Positions 13,485-64,000 of a DNA stretch of 64,000 nucleotides are shown in pieces. Position numbers and translations under genes: made by a program. The notes beneath the pieces were generated by a model. It was not told the DNA's origin. It saw nothing but the letters and a program-made list of their open reading frames with translations, and did no database searches. The DNA is taken from NCBI RefSeq assembly GCF_023006325.1, contig NZ_JAINDF010000005.1:124001-188000 (forward strand), in the 5' to 3' direction. This DNA is from Kordiimonas marina. Its GTDB lineage: Bacteria; Pseudomonadota; Alphaproteobacteria; Sphingomonadales; Kordiimonadaceae. How positions within the stretch are numbered: position 1 is the first letter of the stretch; each line of letters begins with the position of its first letter.

Positions 13485-15215
13485 TTAGAAGCTGACGCGG
13501 GATTCGTATAGGTCGGGCAGGTTGTTTTCAAACAGCACCGCGTCGCCCGCGCGCCAGTTCGCCTTGACCCAGGCTTCGGCTTCTTCCTGTTTCGCGAAAG
13601 TCATCACCGTTGTGCTGCCGTCATTGGCGGCATTCAGGGCGGAGACAAAGCTCGGGATACGGTCGGGCGTGACCACCAGCACAATGTCGGCATGTTTCGC
13701 GGCGAGCGCGCCCAAGGCGGCGTGCTCTTCCTCATGCTTTTCACCAAGCTCGACCATGCCTGGGGTGACGAGGATGCGCCTGCCGCCGTCGGTCACCAGT
13801 ACGTCCAGGCATTCAAGCGCGGCGGCAAAGCCGACCGGGTTCGAATTATAGGCATCGTTGATCAGCGTCGGGCCGTCGGTGCCGAGGCTGACTTCCAGCC
13901 GGTGGCGGATCTGCGGCATGGACGCCAGCGCGCCTTTGATCGCGGCCCAGGGCAGGCCGATTGCGCGCGCGGCGGCGGCGGCGAGCACAATATTGCCCGC
14001 CTGGTGCCTGCCATAAAGCGGCGCCTTGAGGATATGCTCTTCCGTGCCGTCCATCACCTTGAGCGTCAGGCCATCGCGGGTCATTGTGCTGTCCTTGAGG
14101 GCGATATCGCCTGTGCGCCCCGCGCTGATATAGCGGCCGGGCACGGCTTTCATGCGTTCAGCCAGAAGTTCTGGCGGGATACCGTCGGTGCTGACGACCA
14201 CCTCGCCGTCTTTCTTGAAGGTGGCTTCAGCCAGCTCGAACTTGGCGCGCGCCACCGTCTCCAGCGATTTGAAGCGCTCGTAATGCGCGGCGCCAACCGC
14301 CGTGATCATCCCGACATCGGGCGGGGTCAGCGTGCACAACCGCGCGATCGAGCCGGGGCCGTATGCGCCCATCTCGACGATGAAATAGTCATGCTCGGGC
14401 GTCAGCTGCTCACGGATCACGCGGGTGATACCCATGTCGGTGTTAACCGAGCCGGGGGTCGCCAACGTGGGCGCGGCAGTGGACAGAATATGCTGCAGGA
14501 TATGCTTGGTCGAGGTTTTGCCGAACGAGCCGGTGATGGCGATGACCCGGGGCTGGAGCTTGTTAAACTTCTCCACAGCCTCAGCGCGGAAGCGTGCCTT
14601 GACCCGCTCTTCCGCCGGTTCCAGGAACTTGTTGCCGAAAACCAGCAGCGCCGGAAGGGCCTGCACGAAAGCGATCAGTAACAGGGCGACTGTTACCACC
14701 CGCCAGTCATACTGGAGCGTGAGCCAGCTGAAGCCGCTCATGTCAACCTGCACGGCATATTGTTCGCCCTTGGGGGCAAGCCCGCCGGCGACGAGGATGA
14801 AGAACAGGGTTGCCGCGGACAGCGCCATATAGACCATGAAAATGCGTTTGGCGCGTGCGGTCATCACCAGCGGCTTCTTCGATGTCTTGCGCATGGCGCG
14901 CGACCGGAAAGCACCATGGATGAAGGCGAGGGTCATCAAAGGCCAGGTCAGGTATTTTGCACCCGCGAGCACATTGCCGACACTGCCTGACAGCAGGGTC
15001 TGCGACAGGGTTCCGACCAGGGCGGCAGCCAGAAGCCACAGGCTCGCGCGCCGGTCATAAGCTTTTATGTCCTTGACCCAGGCGATGAAGCGGACGCCGT
15101 CATATTCCTCCTGCTGGAAGAATTTCATCAGGGCCATGCCGCGCTCGAACGTGAACCACAGAATGAGCGGGATACCGATGATAAGGGCGATGAGATTGAA
15201 GGAAATCTCAGGCAT
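13485..15215 (-). CDS. Membrane-anchored MurF-like Mur ligase
   Basis: A 576-residue protein in two parts. Residues 1-200 hold about five membrane helices (near 7-23, 58-85, 86-104, 123-146 and 172-194). Residues 222-576 are Mur ligase central and C-terminal domains. These carry the P-loop GSFGKTST (229-236), EMGAYGPGSI (281-290), the carbamylated-lysine region VARAKFELAE (Lys325), the MurF-type INDAYNSNP (452-460) and TPGMVELG (484-491). MurF adds D-Ala-D-Ala to UDP-MurNAc-tripeptide, but the MurF N-terminal domain that binds the UDP-sugar is absent here and replaced by the membrane part. The substrate may therefore be lipid-linked, or not peptidoglycan. It overlaps the alpha/beta hydrolase gene by 8 bases. 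Confidence 0.85.
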   Translation of the reverse strand: MPEISFNLIALIIGIPLILWFTFERGMALMKFFQQEEYDGVRFIAWVKDIKAYDRRASLWLLAAALVGTLSQTLLSGSVGNVLAGAKYLTWPLMTLAFIHGAFRSRAMRKTSKKPLVMTARAKRIFMVYMALSAATLFFILVAGGLAPKGEQYAVQVDMSGFSWLTLQYDWRVVTVALLLIAFVQALPALLVFGNKFLEPAEERVKARFRAEAVEKFNKLQPRVIAITGSFGKTSTKHILQHILSTAAPTLATPGSVNTDMGITRVIREQLTPEHDYFIVEMGAYGPGSIARLCTLTPPDVGMITAVGAAHYERFKSLETVARAKFELAEATFKKDGEVVVSTDGIPPELLAERMKAVPGRYISAGRTGDIALKDSTMTRDGLTLKVMDGTEEHILKAPLYGRHQAGNIVLAAAAARAIGLPWAAIKGALASMPQIRHRLEVSLGTDGPTLINDAYNSNPVGFAAALECLDVLVTDGGRRILVTPGMVELGEKHEEEHAALGALAAKHADIVLVVTPDRIPSFVSALNAANDGSTTVMTFAKQEEAEAWVKANWRAGDAVLFENNLPDLYESRVSF

Positions 15216-15990
15216 TTTTGAGGTCCTCCAGGAAGGTGCGCATCAGCGCCTCGCACTGGTAGGCGCCGCGCGTCAGGATATCCAGATGGCCGAAGCCGGG
15301 GACTAGTTCGAAGCGCGCGATCGGGATCAGCTGCTCATACCGACGGCCGATCTCCGGCGGGGTTTCGGTGTCTTCGGAGCCATAGATCAGAAGCGCAGGC
15401 GCCCGGCCCGCTTTGGCGGCGGCGGTCAGGTTTTCATTGACCGCCCGCACGAAGGTGCCGCGGAGGACACCGGCGTTCCTGTAATCCGCACTGCCGAACT
15501 TCTGGGTATAGGCCTCGCGGAAGTGCGTACCGAAAAGCTTGTCAGAGAGGCGGGCCATCCGGCCGACCAGCTTGAGCCAAAAGGCGCGCAGGCGGAAGGC
15601 AAGCGAGCGGCGGCGCTTGAGCCCTGCCCCGCCAATAATGATGATCGCACGGACAAGATCCGGGTGGCGGGCAGCCATCTGCACCGCCATGCGGCCGCCG
15701 AAGCTGTGGCCGACGATGACGGCGGGGCCAAGCCCTGAGGCTTTCATTTCAGCCGCAAGCGCGTCGGCATAATCCTCGGTTCCGGCGCCTTCCTGAAGCG
15801 GGGCGGTCTCGCCGAAGCCGGGCAGGTCATACAGTGTGTGCTGGCCGTCAGCTTTGAAAAGGTCGGCGAGGCGCGCCATCGAGGCTCCGGTCTGGCCCCA
15901 GCCGTGCAGCCACACGAACGGCGCTTTGCCGTCGGTGCCGACCGTCTGCTTGTGCCAGCGTTTCTCCATGCTGCTGCCCTTGTCCGCCAC
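15208..15990 (-). CDS. Alpha/beta hydrolase
   Basis: A 260-residue hydrolase with an intact catalytic triad: Ser96 in VGHSFGG, Asp207 in YGSEDTETPP and His235 in GFGHLD. The oxyanion loop is WLHGWGQTG. No signal peptide is seen, so it is probably cytosolic. Its gene lies 8 bases after the Ddl-like gene and overlaps the Mur-ligase gene, which ties it to a cell-wall or peptide-ligation task. It could be an esterase or amidase that trims the ligase product. GTG at 15990 (GAGGA upstream) and ATG at 15969 are both plausible starts. Confidence 0.85.
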   Translation of the reverse strand: MADKGSSMEKRWHKQTVGTDGKAPFVWLHGWGQTGASMARLADLFKADGQHTLYDLPGFGETAPLQEGAGTEDYADALAAEMKASGLGPAVIVGHSFGGRMAVQMAARHPDLVRAIIIIGGAGLKRRRSLAFRLRAFWLKLVGRMARLSDKLFGTHFREAYTQKFGSADYRNAGVLRGTFVRAVNENLTAAAKAGRAPALLIYGSEDTETPPEIGRRYEQLIPIARFELVPGFGHLDILTRGAYQCEALMRTFLEDLKNA

Positions 15991-15998
15991 GTGTGTCC

Positions 15999-17222
15999 TC
16001 AGCCCCGCCGGAAGATGGTGGCGCCGCTTGAGCCTGCGTCGGTTTGGCCGAGCCGGTTGGCGGACAGGCGGAAGCCTTCATCGACCATCGCGCTGGTGAG
16101 CTTCAGGAAGCTGACCGGCTCTTTTGCTGCTTCCCACAGGAAATAGGCGAAGGAGCCGGGGATGGTGTTGACTTCGTTGAACCACAGCGCGCCCGTCTCG
16201 CTGTTGCATAGGAAATCGACGCGCACGCTGCCCGCAAGGGCGAGTTCATCGAAGATTTTTGAGGCGCTGCCCCGAATGAAGCTTTCCTGCGCGTCCGTCA
16301 GTTCGTCAGGGTTAAGGACGCGGTTGAGGGACGCCATGCCTTCGCTCGGGCCGGTGTCCAGCTTTGGGCCGCCGGGTTCGCCACCCGCCAGATATTTGTT
16401 CTTGAAGTCAAGAAGCTCGGCGTCCCGCTTCGGCCGTTCGATGGCTGAGGTTAGGGTGGTGCCGTCGGCACCGCGGCGGACGGCGATGTTGTATTCGGTA
16501 AGGTTGGACACGAAGGGTTCGACGATGACGTCGCTATCGAGCCGGAACGCGGTCATGAGCGCGGCGATCAGGCCGTCCATGTCATCCGCCTTGCCGACAC
16601 CGACGCTGGAGCCCAGGTTGGCGGGCTTGACGATATAGGGGAAGTCCATGCCTTCCATGGCCTTGAGCGCGGGTGCCACCGTGTCGGCGTCCAGGAACTT
16701 GCCCTTGGGCGGGCGCTTGAAGGTAACTTCCGGCAACACTTTGATGCCGTGCGTGCGCGCCACCGCCTTGGTGAAGACCTTGTTCATGGTCGCGGCAGAG
16801 CCGAGCGTGCGGCAGCCGGCATAGGGAATACCGGCGAAATCCAGCATGCCCTGAAGGGTGCCGTCTTCGCCGTTGGAGCCGTGGATCGCCGGGACCATCA
16901 GGTCGAACGGCAGGCTGACGCGCTTTTCACCCATCAGGCCTTTCTGGAAGGCAATGAGCTGCGGACGGCCGGTCGCGGGTGCGGCAAGGTCCAGCATGAC
17001 CTGGCTCAGGTCCTTGGTTTCGCTGCCTTCAAGCGGATAGCGGCTGCGCTTCTTGAGCGCCGCGCCGGTCCACCACTGGCCGAGCGGGTCGACATAGATG
17101 GGGAGGCCTTCGAAACGGCCGGGGTCCAGCGCTTCCAGGAACTGTAGCCCGCTGAGCACGCTGACATCATGCTCGACGCTTCTTCCTCCGAAAATGACGG
17201 CGATGACCTGTTTGTCGGCCAT
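15999..17222 (-). CDS. D-alanine-D-alanine ligase family protein (ATP-grasp)
   Basis: A 407-residue ligase with the Ddl signatures: IFGGRSVEHDVS (Glu17), IHGSNGEDGTLQG (113-125), VKPANLGSSVGVGK (198-211) and FNEVNTIPGS (348-357). The omega loop keeps Lys276-Tyr277 (DFKNKY). The equivalent Lys-Tyr pair in E. coli DdlB favours D-Ala-D-Ala over D-Ala-D-lactate. It is longer than DdlB, about 306 residues, with a Ser/Gly-rich tail. The segment after NTIPG (SFAYFLWEAAKEPVSFLKL) differs from the DdlA/DdlB form. It is first in an operon with an alpha/beta hydrolase and the membrane Mur ligase. The main ddl of the cell may lie elsewhere, in the division cluster. A short GCCCT/AGGGC dyad lies 21 bases before the start. 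Confidence 0.9.
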   Translation of the reverse strand: MADKQVIAVIFGGRSVEHDVSVLSGLQFLEALDPGRFEGLPIYVDPLGQWWTGAALKKRSRYPLEGSETKDLSQVMLDLAAPATGRPQLIAFQKGLMGEKRVSLPFDLMVPAIHGSNGEDGTLQGMLDFAGIPYAGCRTLGSAATMNKVFTKAVARTHGIKVLPEVTFKRPPKGKFLDADTVAPALKAMEGMDFPYIVKPANLGSSVGVGKADDMDGLIAALMTAFRLDSDVIVEPFVSNLTEYNIAVRRGADGTTLTSAIERPKRDAELLDFKNKYLAGGEPGGPKLDTGPSEGMASLNRVLNPDELTDAQESFIRGSASKIFDELALAGSVRVDFLCNSETGALWFNEVNTIPGSFAYFLWEAAKEPVSFLKLTSAMVDEGFRLSANRLGQTDAGSSGATIFRRG

Positions 17223-17452
17223 GGGTCCCCCTTATTTGCTGAGCCCTCAAGGGCGTGTTTCCTTCATGTAGCCAATTCGCGGCCAAACGGCAAAGCCAAA
17301 TAGAGCAAAAACCGTAAGGATGGCGCTTTCTGGGCGCCCCCAAGGCGTCCCCAAGGCCACCTGCACGGATTTGGTCACTCGCTTGTCATTTGACGGCGGC
17401 GCGCTCTCGGGTAAAGTCAGGCATCAGGAGCCAGGATCAGGGAGTGGCAACC

Positions 17453-18367
17453 ATGAAACGGATACGGTTGGGCCGTTTGGCCAGTGTGGTAACCAGTGTT
17501 GTGGCGAGTATGTGCATGGCCGCGTCAGCGCACGCGGCAACGGACTGGAGCAAGGTCGAGATCAAGACCTTCCATCTGCGCGGGCCGATTTACGCGCTCT
17601 ATGGCGCGGGCGGCAATATCGGCGTGTCGGCCGGTAAGGACGGCGTCTATATCATCGATGACGACTATGCCCCCTTGAGCGACAAACTGAAGGCGGCGAT
17701 CAAAGCGATTTCCGACAAGCCGGTCCGCTATGTCATCAACACCCATTATCATGAGGACCATACCGGCGGGAACGAAGCCATGGGCGAAGCCGGTGCCGTG
17801 ATCGTGGCGCAGGACAATGTGCGGCTGAGGCTTTCCAAAGGCTCCTTCATCAAGGTGTTCGGCATGAAGATGGCGCCGAAAACCGGTGTCGCGCTGCCGA
17901 CCATCACTTTCAGTGACCAGATTTCCTTCCATATGAACGGCGAAGAAGCCCGGGTGATCCATGTGGACAATGCCCACACCGACGGCGACAGTATTGTCTG
18001 GTTCAGGGGCTCGAACGTCATCCATATGGGCGATACCTATTTCAGCGCCCGGCTGCCCTTCATCGACGTGCCGGGCGGCGGCGATATCGACGGCATGATC
18101 AGCGCCACCGAAATGGTGCTGTCGGTCGCCGATGACCAGACCAAGATCATCCCCGGCCACGGCCCGCTGTCGGATAAGGCTGGCCTGCAGCGTTACCACG
18201 ATATGCTGGTGAAGGCGCGAGGGCTGATCGCCGACTTGAAAGCCAAGGGCATGAGCCTCGAGGACATCCGCGCCGCCAAGCCTCTCGAAGCCCTGGACCC
18301 TTACTGGCTGCAGAAAGGCCAGGACTGGACCGACAAGTTCATCGGCTTCGTTTACGATAGCCTCTAA
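17453..18367 (+). CDS. Exported MBL-fold metallohydrolase
   Basis: A 304-residue protein with a signal peptide ending near AASAHAA (residues 23-29). The metallo-beta-lactamase zinc motif is NTHYHEDHTGGN, with His98, His100, Asp102 and His103. Further metal ligands are likely in VDNAHTDGDS and IPGHGP. The fold is shared by beta-lactamases, glyoxalase II and lactonases; the sequence does not tell which substrate is used. The start at 17453 begins the signal peptide behind AGGGAGTGGCAACC. The earlier in-frame Met at 17390 adds a stretch unlike a signal sequence. Confidence 0.85.
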   Translation: MKRIRLGRLASVVTSVVASMCMAASAHAATDWSKVEIKTFHLRGPIYALYGAGGNIGVSAGKDGVYIIDDDYAPLSDKLKAAIKAISDKPVRYVINTHYHEDHTGGNEAMGEAGAVIVAQDNVRLRLSKGSFIKVFGMKMAPKTGVALPTITFSDQISFHMNGEEARVIHVDNAHTDGDSIVWFRGSNVIHMGDTYFSARLPFIDVPGGGDIDGMISATEMVLSVADDQTKIIPGHGPLSDKAGLQRYHDMLVKARGLIADLKAKGMSLEDIRAAKPLEALDPYWLQKGQDWTDKFIGFVYDSL

Positions 18368-58473: not shown

Positions 58474-58528
58474 AGGAGAGCCCTTCCTTGAGGCATTGGG
58501 CCTTTATTTAGTCGGGGAGGCGAAAGGC

Positions 58529-59215
58529 TCAGTGTTTTTTCAAAAAGGCGCTGATGTCGCTGTCAGGGCCACTCAAGTATGTAACCCATGAGGTAAGGTG
58601 GTACGTTCGAACATAGTGTCTCATGATCCAACGTTGCCAATGAAAGGCCATTTTGATCTGTTGTTTTAGAAGTCTTATATCGTTGCTGCTCAGATGCTGA
58701 TAAAGAATTATACCTATATGGATACGCTGCATCAGAAGAAAAGGCTCAAAAGATGCGATTCTACTCGAAGAGCGCCATGCCCTGATGGCATCGTCATAAT
58801 GGCCTAGAATTATTTGAGCTACGGATATCCTTTCCCATGCGAAAGGATTTAGGGGTGCTTTGTCTAGACTGATTTGGGATTCTTCGATAGCCATTTTGGC
58901 AAATTCAAGACGCTTCTGCCGATCATTTGTGTGCTGGGCTTGAACCAAATAGCTAGTGCCTAGCTCGGCATGGAATTGTGGCAAATCTGCAAAAGAGATG
59001 GCCGAAAGGAATGATTGTTCGAGAGTCGATAGGTCTTTTGCCGAAACTTGAGTGTTGGCACGCACTTTCTCTAGGATAGGACGCCCAGGTACTATCATGA
59101 CCTCGGCTAAGAAGCGTGGGACGCCAGTCCACAAGATATACAGAGCTGACACCATCATAAGGCCAGAGAGAAGCCGCCTGCCGTTCTTGCCAAGTATAGA
59201 TGCGCGAAGTGTCAT
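58529..59215 (-). CDS. TPR-like membrane protein of the polysaccharide region
   Basis: A 228-residue protein with one N-terminal membrane helix (LLSGLMMVSALYILWTGVP), then helical repeats that look like degenerate TPRs (SFADLPQFHAELGTSYLVQA, NPFAWERISVAQIILGHYDDAI). It has no known enzymatic motif. The gene is AT-richer than its left neighbours and lies 76 bases downstream of the sugar transferase gene, on the same strand, so it probably belongs to the polysaccharide locus. A GTG three bases upstream is an alternative start. Confidence 0.65.
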   Translation of the reverse strand: MTLRASILGKNGRRLLSGLMMVSALYILWTGVPRFLAEVMIVPGRPILEKVRANTQVSAKDLSTLEQSFLSAISFADLPQFHAELGTSYLVQAQHTNDRQKRLEFAKMAIEESQISLDKAPLNPFAWERISVAQIILGHYDDAIRAWRSSSRIASFEPFLLMQRIHIGIILYQHLSSNDIRLLKQQIKMAFHWQRWIMRHYVRTYHLTSWVTYLSGPDSDISAFLKKH

Positions 59216-59291
59216 CACTCTTTTCAGTCCAATTCTTATAGCTGTAGATGGCCACAGTGAGGTGAAGGCTGTTACGTGTGATTATTGAGCT

Positions 59292-60752
59292 TTAATAAGC
59301 CTCGCTTGTTTTAAAAAGAACCACATAGACCGTTTTTATGAGGATGAAGATGTCTAAGGTCAAACTCCAGTTGCGAATATAATACATATCATATTCAACC
59401 CGCTTCCTGATCTTGTCCTCTGTATCGGTTTCGCCGCGCCAGCCGTTGACCTGCGCCCAGCCGGTGACGCCAGGCCTGACCCTATGGCGAACGGCATAAT
59501 TGTCGACGACGTCTTCAAACAGACGACCGGCCGCCTTGGTTTCCTTCGCATGGGGGCGGGGCCCAACAAGCGACATGGAGCCCATCAACACGTTGAAGAG
59601 CTGGGGGAGCTCGTCGATGCTGGTTTTGCGGATGAAACGCCCGACCCGGGTAACACGAGGATCATGCTCCGTGGTTTGCTGCGCTGCGTGCTGGTCGCTC
59701 ATGTCTGTATACATGGATCGGAACTTGAGGATATTGATCAGCTCGTTGTTGAAGCCATAGCGGGGCTGGACAAATAGCACAGGCCCTTTCGATTCGAGCT
59801 TGATCAGGATCGCGGTGATCAGCATTATCGGCCAAATGGCCGCCAAGGTCCCGAGCGTCAGCACGATATCCTCCAACCGCTTGAGTAACGCCTGCCAACG
59901 TTCGATCGGCTTTCTGTCAATTTCCATCAGCGACAAGGTCCCCAGGGTTTTCTGCGCGCCTGTGCCTGCGATGGGTGCCTGATGTTCCGGGGCCAGATAG
60001 ATATTGACGGCCTTGCGGGATGCCCGTTTCACCACTTCGGCAATGAGGTCCTTGCTGGACCAGGGCGCGGCGATGATCACGTCGTCGATATCGTAGCGTC
60101 CGATGGTCTTTTCGATATCACCAAGGCCGCCGAGGCAGCGGATACCGCTTTCAGGCGGAAAATTGTCGCCTAGGGCGCCGACGATATCCAACTCATAAGA
60201 CTTACCGCTTGAAAGCGACGCACATGTTGAACTGATGGTATTGGCGTCGCCGACAAGGATCGCCCGTGAAATCTTGATCCCGCGTGTTGCCAGCTTGCGC
60301 ATGAGCCGGGCGACATAAAACCTGCTCAGCGCGATATAGGAGCTGAAAAGCAGGAACCATGTCACCCCCCAGATCCGGGAAAAATTGGAGGTTATCTTCA
60401 GCAGGAAGGCAAGAACCAGCAAGCTCCCGAAAGTCAGGATCGTATATTTGAATGACTGATACAGTGAGGTACGCGGGTGCCAGAAATTGCTTTCGCGGTA
60501 GGCATTCTCGGAAAAAGACAAAAAGAAAAAAATAATCAGGAACAATGCTATAGCAAGTGGGTATTGTAGCGAGTCTGCGTTATTGTAGAGGCCAATCCTG
60601 TAGAACCAGGGAATGAAAAAGCTGAGGATTGCCGCGATAAAATCAAAACTGGCAAGAAGGGCAACATAGCTGAACAGCCGGCTCCGCTCGCTGTATGAAC
60701 TAGCACCCTTATTGGGATCCCGCTCTTTTATTAACAACCGTCTGGAAATCAT
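59292..60752 (-). CDS. Polyprenyl-phosphate glycosyl-1-phosphate transferase (WcaJ-like)
   Basis: A 486-residue membrane enzyme that starts polysaccharide repeat units by moving a sugar phosphate to undecaprenyl phosphate. Four N-terminal helices are followed by a nucleotide-binding-like domain ([23 protein letters not shown]). The C-terminal catalytic domain has [39 protein letters not shown] and GPRPHA. Its sugar is probably glucose, by family resemblance only. The Met at 60752 starts the domain; the frame to 60848 is not conserved. Confidence 0.9.
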
Positions 60753-60859
60753 GCTAGATCCTTGAAATTGACAGCTGTCAGTTTGACAAAATAGAATCCA
60801 GTTTAACAAAAAGCATTTTGTAATAATTCTCCACATGAAATAGAGCACAGGCGTTAGAA

Positions 60860-62173
60860 ATGCAATTTATTATCTTTTTCCTGTTGCTGGCGGCACCTTT
60901 ACCGTTTGCTAGCGCTCGCCCAATCTGGCAATGGTTTTGGGTGTGCCTGATAGCGTTGTCCACACTCCTTTCATTTAGCCGGATCACTTTAAAAAATACG
61001 TGGCCTTCAGGTTGGGCTCTTATATGGCCGGTTATAGGGCTTGGCGGCGTTGCCTTTATTGGGCTGCTGCAGGCTTGGGGCAATTGGGGAATGCATTCGG
61101 TTAATGCTGGAGCAACCGTTGCGGTTTCTATTTATTTCTTAGCCCATCTAGTTTGGTTCTTTCTTGTTGTGGCTACTTTCTCTTCCCGTCATAAGGTGAA
61201 GCTCTTGGTGCGTTGGTTGACGGTTACAGCGTCACTTTATGCTGCTTATGGCCTTATTGTCTATTTTACAGGTAATAAGACTATTCTGTGGTATGACAAA
61301 TGGATTTATCCGGAATCCTTAACAGCAACTTTTGTCAATCGTAACAGCTACGCTGCATATTGTGGGGTTGGACTGCAGTGCTTATTGGCCGATCTACTCT
61401 ACCTCCATGGACCATTGTTTGTTTCATTTGATCGACTCAGGCTCAGTTGGCGGGACTTTATCTCAAGGAATATAGTCTCTGTATTATGGCAAACTGTATC
61501 GTTTGTCATTCTGTTGACAGCACTTCTGCTGACAGGGTCACGAGCGGGAGTCTTCACGGTTCTGGTTGGCTGCGTAATTTTAGTTGTTGTGGGGCATGTT
61601 CGAAGCGAGGCTCATGAAAATCAGGTTAGACGTACGTTCAGTATATATTTGGTTTTGGGGATTGGAGCACTTTTAATTGCCGGAATTTTCGGTTTAAGCG
61701 GTGGACTACTTGAAGGCAGGCTGTGGGGACATGGTTTTCTTGATAACAGCCGATTTCATGTCTATCCGCTTGTATTGAAAGCAATACTTGAGGGACCTGT
61801 AATGGGGTACGGCCTAGGTACTTTTGAGGAGGTGTTTAGGCAATTCAGAACTGAAGACGTTAACGTCCTTTTTGACCGGGCGCATAACGATTATTTAGAA
61901 TTGGCAATGACTGCTGGAGTGCCGACGACTTTGGTTTTTTTGATATCTATTGGTGCCGTAATGACCATTCTTCTGAAGTCAGTCAAGGCCAGTGGTGTTT
62001 ATAGGAGTTACGTTGTTTTAGGTGTAACTTTATCGGTGCAATTTGCACTACACTCATTAATTGATTTTTCTTTGCAGATGCCTGCCGTTTCTTACAGTTA
62101 TGTCGCGATTTTAGCGGCTAGCATAGCTGTGGTGAGAAAAAAGACTGTACTACATAGCGGCCCTAATAAGTAA
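60860..62173 (+). CDS. O-antigen ligase/polymerase family membrane protein (Wzy_C)
   Basis: A 437-residue protein with about 10-12 membrane helices and the Wzy_C signature: LLLTGSRAGVFTVLVGCVIL, then YGLGTFEEVFRQF and FDRAHNDYLELAMTAGVP. Such proteins polymerise or ligate polysaccharide chains on the periplasmic side. Codon use and base content are clearly AT-richer than the GC-rich genes to the left, a sign of recent transfer or a variable locus. It is divergent from the sugar transferase gene with a 107-base gap. The ribosome-binding site is weak. Confidence 0.85.
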   Translation: MQFIIFFLLLAAPLPFASARPIWQWFWVCLIALSTLLSFSRITLKNTWPSGWALIWPVIGLGGVAFIGLLQAWGNWGMHSVNAGATVAVSIYFLAHLVWFFLVVATFSSRHKVKLLVRWLTVTASLYAAYGLIVYFTGNKTILWYDKWIYPESLTATFVNRNSYAAYCGVGLQCLLADLLYLHGPLFVSFDRLRLSWRDFISRNIVSVLWQTVSFVILLTALLLTGSRAGVFTVLVGCVILVVVGHVRSEAHENQVRRTFSIYLVLGIGALLIAGIFGLSGGLLEGRLWGHGFLDNSRFHVYPLVLKAILEGPVMGYGLGTFEEVFRQFRTEDVNVLFDRAHNDYLELAMTAGVPTTLVFLISIGAVMTILLKSVKASGVYRSYVVLGVTLSVQFALHSLIDFSLQMPAVSYSYVAILAASIAVVRKKTVLHSGPNK

Positions 62174-62400
62174 TAAATAGCCTTGATCTCAGGATAACCC
62201 TCGGGGGTATTCGAAATGATTATAGAAAGATCCAGTGATGTTGCACCTGCTAACCTAACCATAGATAAAACCAGAAGGTTATTTGTATTTCTTGGCGGCG
62301 AGCATCCTAGATTTTAAGATAAGTAAAGTTTCATTCTTGAAGATATTATATGATCACAGGGAGCAGAAAAGAACCCCTATTTGCATAATGCTAATAGAAG

Positions 62401-64000
62401 TCAATTACTGTAATAACTGCTCTTTGTTCCGTAATAATAGCCTTGATCACCATAGCCGTACCCTTGGTGGCGTTTGATATCGACTTGCGTTAGGATTACA
62501 CCAGCAATATGACGTTCAGTTTGTTGGAGCGTTTTTAGGGCGCTCTTTACAAGGCTTTTTGGGGTTTTATGCCATTGCACAACAAATATAAGCGCATCAA
62601 GTTTTCTAGAGATTACTAATACGTCTGATACCGCTAATGCAGGAGGCGTATCAATAATAATGAAGTCGTATTCCACCCGGGCTTCGCGGAGGAATAGGTC
62701 AAAGGCGGAGCTCTCAAAGAGGTGCTGAGGGTCTGTGTCTTTGTCTGTCCAGAGAATATGAATGTTGGAAATTGGATCTTCGTAGAGTTTACTGCTGTTT
62801 TCCGAGATTTTTCCATCCAAAACATCATTGAGGCGAATAAAACTTTCATTAAGACCGAGCCGGTTTTTCATGACGGGTCGACGCATATCCGCCTCAACTA
62901 CCAATACTTTACGGCCAGATCGCCCCAACGTATGAGCCAGGCAGAGTGCTGCGGTCGACTTTCCTTCCCCTGGCACGGAAGAAGTAAGGCCGATTACTTG
63001 CGGGGCATTGCCAGAGGGGGCGGAAAACATAAGTGATGCATGAATATTGCGGTGCGCTTCCGCGAAAGAAGATGTTGGTTTTGAGAGCAAGTAGGCTTCT
63101 GGGCCAGCCTCTTTGAGTTTTGATTTTCCAATCAATGGTATCATGCCAAGGCCCCGTAGGCCAAAGTCGCGGTGGAGTTGATCGAAATTCCGATAGCCGT
63201 TATCTAGGGCCTCAAGGAGGAATGTGAAGCCAATCCCAAGACCGACCCCTGTAAATGCAAACAAAATTACAATTAAACGGGTTTTTGGGAAAGAAGGGTG
63301 GGTGGGAACGTCCGCGCGGGAAACTATACGGGCATCAGCTTGTTGCAAGCCGTCTTGGCTGGAAGTTTCTTTGAAGCGCGTTAAGAAAGTTTTCAGAAGG
63401 AGTTGGTTGGCGGCTACTTCGCGTTCGAGTTCACGCATTTTTACTTGTGCGCGGCCTACTTGGAAGCTCTCTTTTTTAAGGCTATCAAGATTCTCTTCCA
63501 GCGTCTTAACGCGTATGGCAGCCACTTCGGCTTCTGACCGGATGCTGGCTACGATCTTGTCGATCTCTAGCTTGATCTTGGCCTTAATGTTGTTGAGTTC
63601 AGCTTCGACGTTGAGCATCTTTGGGTGCTTGGGGCCATAGCGGGTGGCGAGTTCGGCCCGTTTCCGCTGAACTTCGGATTCCTGTTCTTTCAGTTTCTGT
63701 ATGAGCGGTGACTGGATTACCTCCAATACACCGGTTTCATCATCATCCCCTTTGGAGATGTTCTTTTCAATCTGCTGTTCACGGGCTTTGGCACGCGCGT
63801 AGTCGGTGCGAGCGGTGATGAGTTGGCTGTTGAGCTGTGCAATTTGTTGCTCATTGACGGAGCCTTGCGAATGTGTTTGGACCAGTTGGTGCTCTTCCCG
63901 GAACCTTTCAGCAGCTTCCTCCGACGTTCTCACTTTTTCGCGAAGTTCGAAGACCCGGCTGTTCAGCCACTCATTGGCCCGTTCCGTTGCTTCAAATTTA
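62401..64000 (-). CDS. Polysaccharide co-polymerase/BY tyrosine kinase (Wzc-like), 5' end cut
   Basis: The frame is open to the right edge, so the N-terminus is missing. The visible part begins with a periplasmic coiled coil (ATERANEWLNSRVFELREK and onward), then a second membrane helix near TRLIVILFAFTGVGLGIGFTF. The cytoplasmic kinase follows with Walker A SVPGEGKSTAALCLA, VVEADMRRP (Walker A') and DFIIIDTPPAL (Walker B). A C-terminal tyrosine cluster (GYGYGDQGYYYGTKSSYYSN) is the autophosphorylation site typical of BY-kinases. It controls chain length and export of exopolysaccharide. A matching phosphatase and Wza are not in the window. Confidence 0.92.
   Translation of the reverse strand, partial: KFEATERANEWLNSRVFELREKVRTSEEAAERFREEHQLVQTHSQGSVNEQQIAQLNSQLITARTDYARAKAREQQIEKNISKGDDDETGVLEVIQSPLIQKLKEQESEVQRKRAELATRYGPKHPKMLNVEAELNNIKAKIKLEIDKIVASIRSEAEVAAIRVKTLEENLDSLKKESFQVGRAQVKMRELEREVAANQLLLKTFLTRFKETSSQDGLQQADARIVSRADVPTHPSFPKTRLIVILFAFTGVGLGIGFTFLLEALDNGYRNFDQLHRDFGLRGLGMIPLIGKSKLKEAGPEAYLLSKPTSSFAEAHRNIHASLMFSAPSGNAPQVIGLTSSVPGEGKSTAALCLAHTLGRSGRKVLVVEADMRRPVMKNRLGLNESFIRLNDVLDGKISENSSKLYEDPISNIHILWTDKDTDPQHLFESSAFDLFLREARVEYDFIIIDTPPALAVSDVLVISRKLDALIFVVQWHKTPKSLVKSALKTLQQTERHIAGVILTQVDIKRHQGYGYGDQGYYYGTKSSYYSN

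Follow-up and report, generated by a model that had tools for sequence, protein, structure and literature searches.

A membrane-anchored sister of MurF, linked to a Ddl-type ligase and a hydrolase, appears to have displaced the cytosolic MurF in Kordiimonas marina and other bacteria

Why would a bacterium carry a MurF-like ligase in its membrane, when MurF is seen as a cytosolic protein that is both essential and conserved and that serves as a target for drugs? The question is raised by three adjacent genes of Kordiimonas marina, which encode a Ddl-type ligase, an alpha/beta hydrolase and a membrane-anchored MurF-like ligase (mMurF). They lie in a stretch of 64,000 nucleotides, hereafter the window (assembly GCF_023006325.1, contig NZ_JAINDF010000005.1, positions 124,001 to 188,000). 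A first-pass annotation had read this trio as a second route beside normal ddl and murF genes. Our analysis suggests otherwise: the trio is likely the main and only route by which this bacterium adds the last amino acids of the peptidoglycan precursor, mMurF having displaced the cytosolic MurF. The features concerned are the following, in window coordinates except for the last.

15999-17222, minus strand: Ddl-type ATP-grasp ligase, 407 amino acids, Pfam Dala_Dala_lig N and C domains
16131-16154, minus strand: codons of Ddl residues 357-364 (SFAYFLWE), equivalent to M277-P284 of E. coli DdlB in the second D-Ala pocket
15208-15990, minus strand: alpha/beta hydrolase, 260 amino acids, Pfam Abhydrolase_1
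13485-15215, minus strand: mMurF, membrane-anchored MurF-like ligase, 576 amino acids, Mur_ligase_M and Mur_ligase_C domains
14550-15215, minus strand: N-terminal part of mMurF, residues 1-222, membrane domain predicted by hydropathy and AlphaFold2
13488-14549, minus strand: residues 223-576 of mMurF, the middle and C-terminal Mur ligase domains, which hold the MurF catalytic residues
G000:C20, locus L006, 13500-14489, minus strand: MurF relic between murE and mraY

The positions and identities of the three genes agree with the first-pass annotation. They share one strand, with a gap of 8 bases between the Ddl and hydrolase genes and an overlap of 8 bases (-8) between the hydrolase and mMurF genes. 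A promoter and terminator scan around the trio gave no convincing pattern, so its co-transcription is argued from the spacing.

The genome that holds the window (G000; 3.68 Mb, listed as 100% complete with a contamination of 0.08) contains no second Ddl, and its other matches to PF07478 are biotin carboxylases, RimK and PurK. Its proteins with a Mur_ligase_C domain are MurE, MurC, MurD, FolC and mMurF. The division and cell wall (dcw) cluster runs in the order rsmH, ftsI, murE, relic, mraY, murD, ftsW, murG, murC, murB, ftsQ, ftsA, ftsZ. It has no ddl, and its murF slot holds a relic of 329 amino acids without the P-loop and the C-terminal domain. mMurF is therefore the only intact MurF of this genome. 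We do not favor a sequencing or assembly artifact as the origin of the relic, since a related form of 333 amino acids (43% identical) occupies the same place with an intact frame in genome G001. With neither another Ddl nor another intact MurF, the trio would, by the test that the first-pass annotation itself set, be the main pathway here, and a second route beside a normal pair finds no support in this genome.

The same exclusion is seen more widely. We examined 389 alphaproteobacterial genomes with a completeness of ≥95% and called mMurF present at E < 1e-120, the next match being at 7e-52. Sixteen genomes carried it. A recognizable intact canonical MurF was absent from 13 of these 16 but from only 13 of the 373 genomes without mMurF (Fisher p ~9e-15; the genomes are not independent, and a per-family count points in the same direction). 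The three exceptions are G144 and G342, each with a canonical MurF, and G223, whose canonical MurF has lost the DxYNxN motif. Isolates in which no full-length canonical MurF was found (E ≤ 1e-28) include Blastochloris sulfoviridis, Azospirillum halopraeferens, Croceicoccus species, Pelagimonas phthalicica, Pacificibacter marinus and Actibacterium atlanticum, all of them drafts whose completeness is not stated. Of the 48 trio genomes surveyed, which come from several phyla, 43 have just one Ddl. Displacement of the canonical MurF by mMurF is thus well supported by genome comparison, apparently across several alphaproteobacterial families and also in other phyla. The replacement appears to have happened many times in evolution, MurF having repeatedly given way to a sister ligase in the membrane whose gene is linked to those of a Ddl and a hydrolase.

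The family Kordiimonadaceae captures this process at different stages. mMurF and a single trio-type Ddl are kept in all 30 genomes (G019 has one further Ddl fragment at a contig edge), and the fate of murF varies. Seven genomes (G003, G006, G013, G014, G015, G017, which is Kordiimonas aquimaris, and G018) have lost it in a clean deletion that leaves murE directly against mraY. It is truncated in two (G000 and G001) and full-length but dead in two others (G022 and G029), in which the P-loop reads GARGNRTL and DDSYNAN has become DHSAG. The slot is weakened in G004, G009 and G027 and intact in most others; about 17 of the 30 genomes have a canonical MurF beside the trio. In such relatives, for example Kordiimonas gwangyangensis, an intact canonical MurF and mMurF coexist, but the trio still provides the only Ddl. 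In a tree built from the concatenated dcw proteins, the branches with strong support require that murF was lost three times independently. Because murF ranges from intact through dead and truncated to deleted among close Kordiimonas species, these offer natural murF knockouts in which to study what mMurF does, and the series lets one ask whether the last stem-peptide addition can occur at the lipid stage.

The dead full-length MurF of G022 and G029 has a dN/dS of 0.053, which lies within the range of functional neighbors (0.016-0.095) and indicates purifying selection for a non-catalytic purpose. The G000/G001 relic is more relaxed (dN/dS 0.35, with dS near saturation). The dead full-length protein probably has a structural role. 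Such a role is plausible because the MurE-MurF fusion of Bordetella binds the membrane-associated MurG (PMC6420597), and membership of MurF in a scaffolded complex with MurE and MurG (PMC6420597, PDB 8f5d) would be a reason to keep it. The Bordetella MurF is active and soluble and has no membrane paralogue. Purifying selection on a dead MurF also offers a route to testing the idea of a structural Mur-enzyme complex.

Reduced MurFs are not confined to this family. Many mMurF genomes have dead or truncated MurFs, related to the relic of the window genome, between murE and mraY, and further examples outside Kordiimonadaceae occur in Croceicoccus, Pseudooceanicola, G093 and Micavibrio-like genomes. 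In G093 (locus L162, 8157-10565, minus strand), MurE and a catalytically inactive MurF without the C-terminal domain form a single in-frame fusion. A conserved domain of about 150 amino acids (IDxGxGRQTAxLxN ... VIAPGDFxVF) stands alone between murE and mraY in Micavibrio-like loci L153, L154 and L155, and the same domain is fused to the C-terminus of a pseudo-MurF in their relatives L167 and L171.

We surveyed 80 loci brought in by mMurF, starting from an alignment of the Kordiimonadaceae mMurFs, and found relatives in many alphaproteobacterial orders and in Desulfovibrio, Omnitrophota, Chloroflexota and Actinomycetota; the trio is conserved across these groups. Of the 75 loci that were informative for the hydrolase, 72 have its gene immediately upstream of mMurF. 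A Ddl gene lies near mMurF in 68 of the 80, in co-directional, divergent or downstream position. The distance matrices of the three proteins correlate (r = 0.90-0.94, against ≤0.15 for label shuffles), part of which reflects the common descent of the hosts. Several Alphaproteobacteria have the trio inside the division cluster, where it takes the place between murB and ftsQ that ddlB usually occupies. The linkage is thus more than chance, and the first-pass view of the trio as a real module that makes a terminal dipeptide and joins it to an acceptor is borne out by this conservation. Three termite-gut Rickettsiales metagenome-assembled genomes (MAGs; loci L115, L119 and L142) have mMurF with neither an adjacent hydrolase gene nor a nearby Ddl gene. 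A literature search, whose coverage left out most subscription journals and bioRxiv, returned no description of the trio, nor of a membrane-bound, second, missing or pseudogene murF.

What kind of enzyme is mMurF? Its Mur ligase part is related to MurF specifically. In the tree, the mMurF clade (bootstrap/SH-aLRT 99/96) groups with MurF as its sister and both are separate from MurE, and MurF structures rank first in a fold search with mMurF (Z 36). mMurF shares with MurF (TIGR01143; PDB 1gg4, 4cvm, 3zl8, 4qf5) the middle and C-terminal domains, the P-loop, the catalytic Glu and His, the lysine at the carbamylation position and the DxYNxN motif. The core residues (P-loop, E158, H188, K202, R316, D331, N334 and N336 in E. 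coli numbering) are 90-100% conserved in 90 mMurFs. Because the P-loop, the catalytic Glu/His/Lys and DxYNxN are retained, we infer from sequence that mMurF is an active ligase. Three swaps are specific to the family (NLNN to GSxNT, GDMxELG to PGMVELG, and KGSRS to ENxLPD).

The N-terminal part differs from MurF. Where MurF has its UDP-MurNAc-binding N-domain, mMurF has five membrane helices and a stalk. Pfam detects no Mur_ligase N domain in mMurF, and the TIGR01143 match begins at position 63 of 418, leaving out the domain that binds UDP-MurNAc-tripeptide. In the AlphaFold2 model (mean pLDDT 92.8), transmembrane helices span residues 6-35, 55-76, 80-111 and 120-145, followed by a hairpin (149-170) and a fifth helix with the stalk (171-220). 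The membrane location proposed at first pass is in line with both this model and hydropathy. The cytosolic loops carry the conserved motifs FQQEEYD..RF and KKxLVxTxRxxR, and the basic residues of these loops could bind a pyrophosphate group at the membrane surface.

The Ddl of the trio keeps its catalytic residues and differs in the pocket for the second substrate. It shares the ATP-grasp fold with known Ddl enzymes (TIGR01205; E. coli DdlB, S. aureus Ddl 3n8d) and keeps the equivalents of E15, S150, K215, Y216, R255, D257, E270 and N272, and with them the catalytic residues for ATP and the first D-Ala, including the omega-loop Tyr216. The second-substrate loop is different. The TSHSLVP loop of Ddl is replaced by a FAYFLWE-type loop, and nearly all trio Ddls have the signature S-[FY]-[AG]-[YF]-[FY]-L-W-E, with S357 and W363 nearly invariant. 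A loop insertion of about 20 residues follows Y216 of the E. coli numbering, or Y277 of the trio Ddl. Ser281 of E. coli DdlB, which contacts the second D-Ala, is replaced by Phe or Tyr in all 75 trio Ddls that have a residue there, so the canonical second D-Ala pocket is not preserved. We considered a cluster of the glycopeptide-resistance type and ruled it out: Van models score far below their cut-off on the trio Ddl (best 167 against 495 bits), and the operon has no vanH- or vanX-type partner, only the alpha/beta hydrolase and mMurF.

The hydrolase is of a generic kind. Its catalytic triad (S96/D207/H235) is invariant in 83 homologues, and no signal peptide or membrane segment was seen in it. 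A structure search for a specific function returned only generic esterases, with no hint of a substrate. It has the fold and Ser-Asp-His triad of esterase-type alpha/beta hydrolases such as BioH, YbfF, RutD and ABHD6 (best Z 27.5), but is only about 20% identical to them and reaches no curated NCBIfam equivalog.

Several points weigh against the trio as the main pathway with mMurF in place of MurF. mMurF scores 232.9 bits on TIGR01143, below the cut-off of 288.6 (all mMurFs score 186-238 bits), and the Ddl scores 231.8 bits on TIGR01205, below the cut-off of 245.65, which is reached by none of the 30 Kordiimonadaceae trio Ddls, though by a few distant ones. A MurF above the curated cut-off is present in at least 9 of the 48 trio genomes, so both MurFs can coexist. 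The absence calls for MurF and Ddl come from homology searches, partly on draft genomes and MAGs. Finally, the altered Ddl pocket and the three motif changes of mMurF could mean another dipeptide or acceptor.

How would the trio work? The Ddl would make the terminal dipeptide, D-Ala-D-Ala or a close relative, and mMurF, as an old membrane-anchored sister of MurF, would join it to MurNAc-tripeptide with ATP. We place this reaction at the inner membrane face because the UDP-holding domain is lost and five helices with conserved basic cytosolic loops are present. The acceptor would most likely be either lipid-linked MurNAc-tripeptide after MraY or UDP-MurNAc-tripeptide held beside MraY. The membrane-bound acceptor of the first-pass annotation is thus plausible in outline, but the data do not separate these two forms. 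For the hydrolase, our guess is an editing or clearing role, in which the donor dipeptide or wrongly loaded products would probably be its substrates. Where a dead dcw-encoded MurF is retained, it is probably a scaffold in the Mur complex. Tentatively, we suggest that MraY takes UDP-MurNAc-tripeptide and that mMurF completes the pentapeptide on the lipid-linked precursor, with a remodelled Ddl, a dedicated hydrolase and the old MurF reduced to a dead scaffold or lost. Completion of the stem peptide at the lipid stage, if true, would put the steps of peptidoglycan synthesis in a new sequence.

The replacement may have taken place in a more conservative form, in which mMurF uses soluble UDP-MurNAc-tripeptide and its membrane domain serves only as a tether that keeps the enzyme next to MraY, where channelling could occur. 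The conserved MurF catalytic residues, the intact and ordinary MraY, MurG and remaining dcw genes, and the interaction of MurE-MurF with membrane-associated MurG (PMC6420597) are consistent with this, and we regard it as a real possibility while leaning against it. The domain that binds the UDP-MurNAc moiety is absent from mMurF, and relic-free species (G003, G013 and others) live without any MurF N-domain.

The product itself may instead differ. A non-standard dipeptide D-Ala-X, for which the Ddl and mMurF pockets have co-changed and of which the hydrolase clears the normal or wrong counterpart, would be compatible with replacement. The Phe/Tyr at the S281 position, S357/W363, the loop insertion and the trio-specific changes in three mMurF motifs argue for it. 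We consider it rather unlikely, as K215/Y216 of the omega loop, E15, S150 and R255 are retained, the same Ddl has to serve canonical MurF too in relatives like K. gwangyangensis, and the altered residues may bind the same ligand in another way.

The remaining explanations are far less probable. A split MurF, with the dcw relic as the UDP-MurNAc-binding N-domain and mMurF as the catalytic domains, would fit the Kordiimonas and Croceicoccus relics, which retain the N-domain region and lose the catalytic parts, as well as the purifying selection in G022/G029. This idea is weakened to a slim chance because the DSR motif of the N-domain is lost from most relics (AGQ, SAS, SPA) and seven genomes of the Kordiimonadaceae lack even a relic. 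A parallel route for recycling or a modified wall draws on the coexistence counts given above, but it is rejected for the window genome on gene content and is very improbable in general, since most trio genomes elsewhere also lack both another Ddl and an intact MurF. It is equally hard to believe that mMurF has no part in the pentapeptide, with MurF activity dispensable or supplied by another enzyme: the hydrolase in the operon is generic, as this would allow, but mMurF and canonical MurF are near mutually exclusive, mMurF is a sister clade of MurF linked to the only Ddl, and several genomes place it inside the dcw cluster at murB/ftsQ.

Two other parts of the window deserve mention. Upstream of the trio, a divergent gene of the metallo-beta-lactamase superfamily (17390-18367, plus strand) encodes a protein with a signal-like N-terminus, and homologues also lie beside some other Kordiimonas trios. 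At 58500-64000, the G+C content drops from about 62% to 47% across putative exopolysaccharide genes, which by sequence encode a sugar transferase, an O-antigen ligase-like protein and a Wzc-like tyrosine kinase; this region was possibly acquired.

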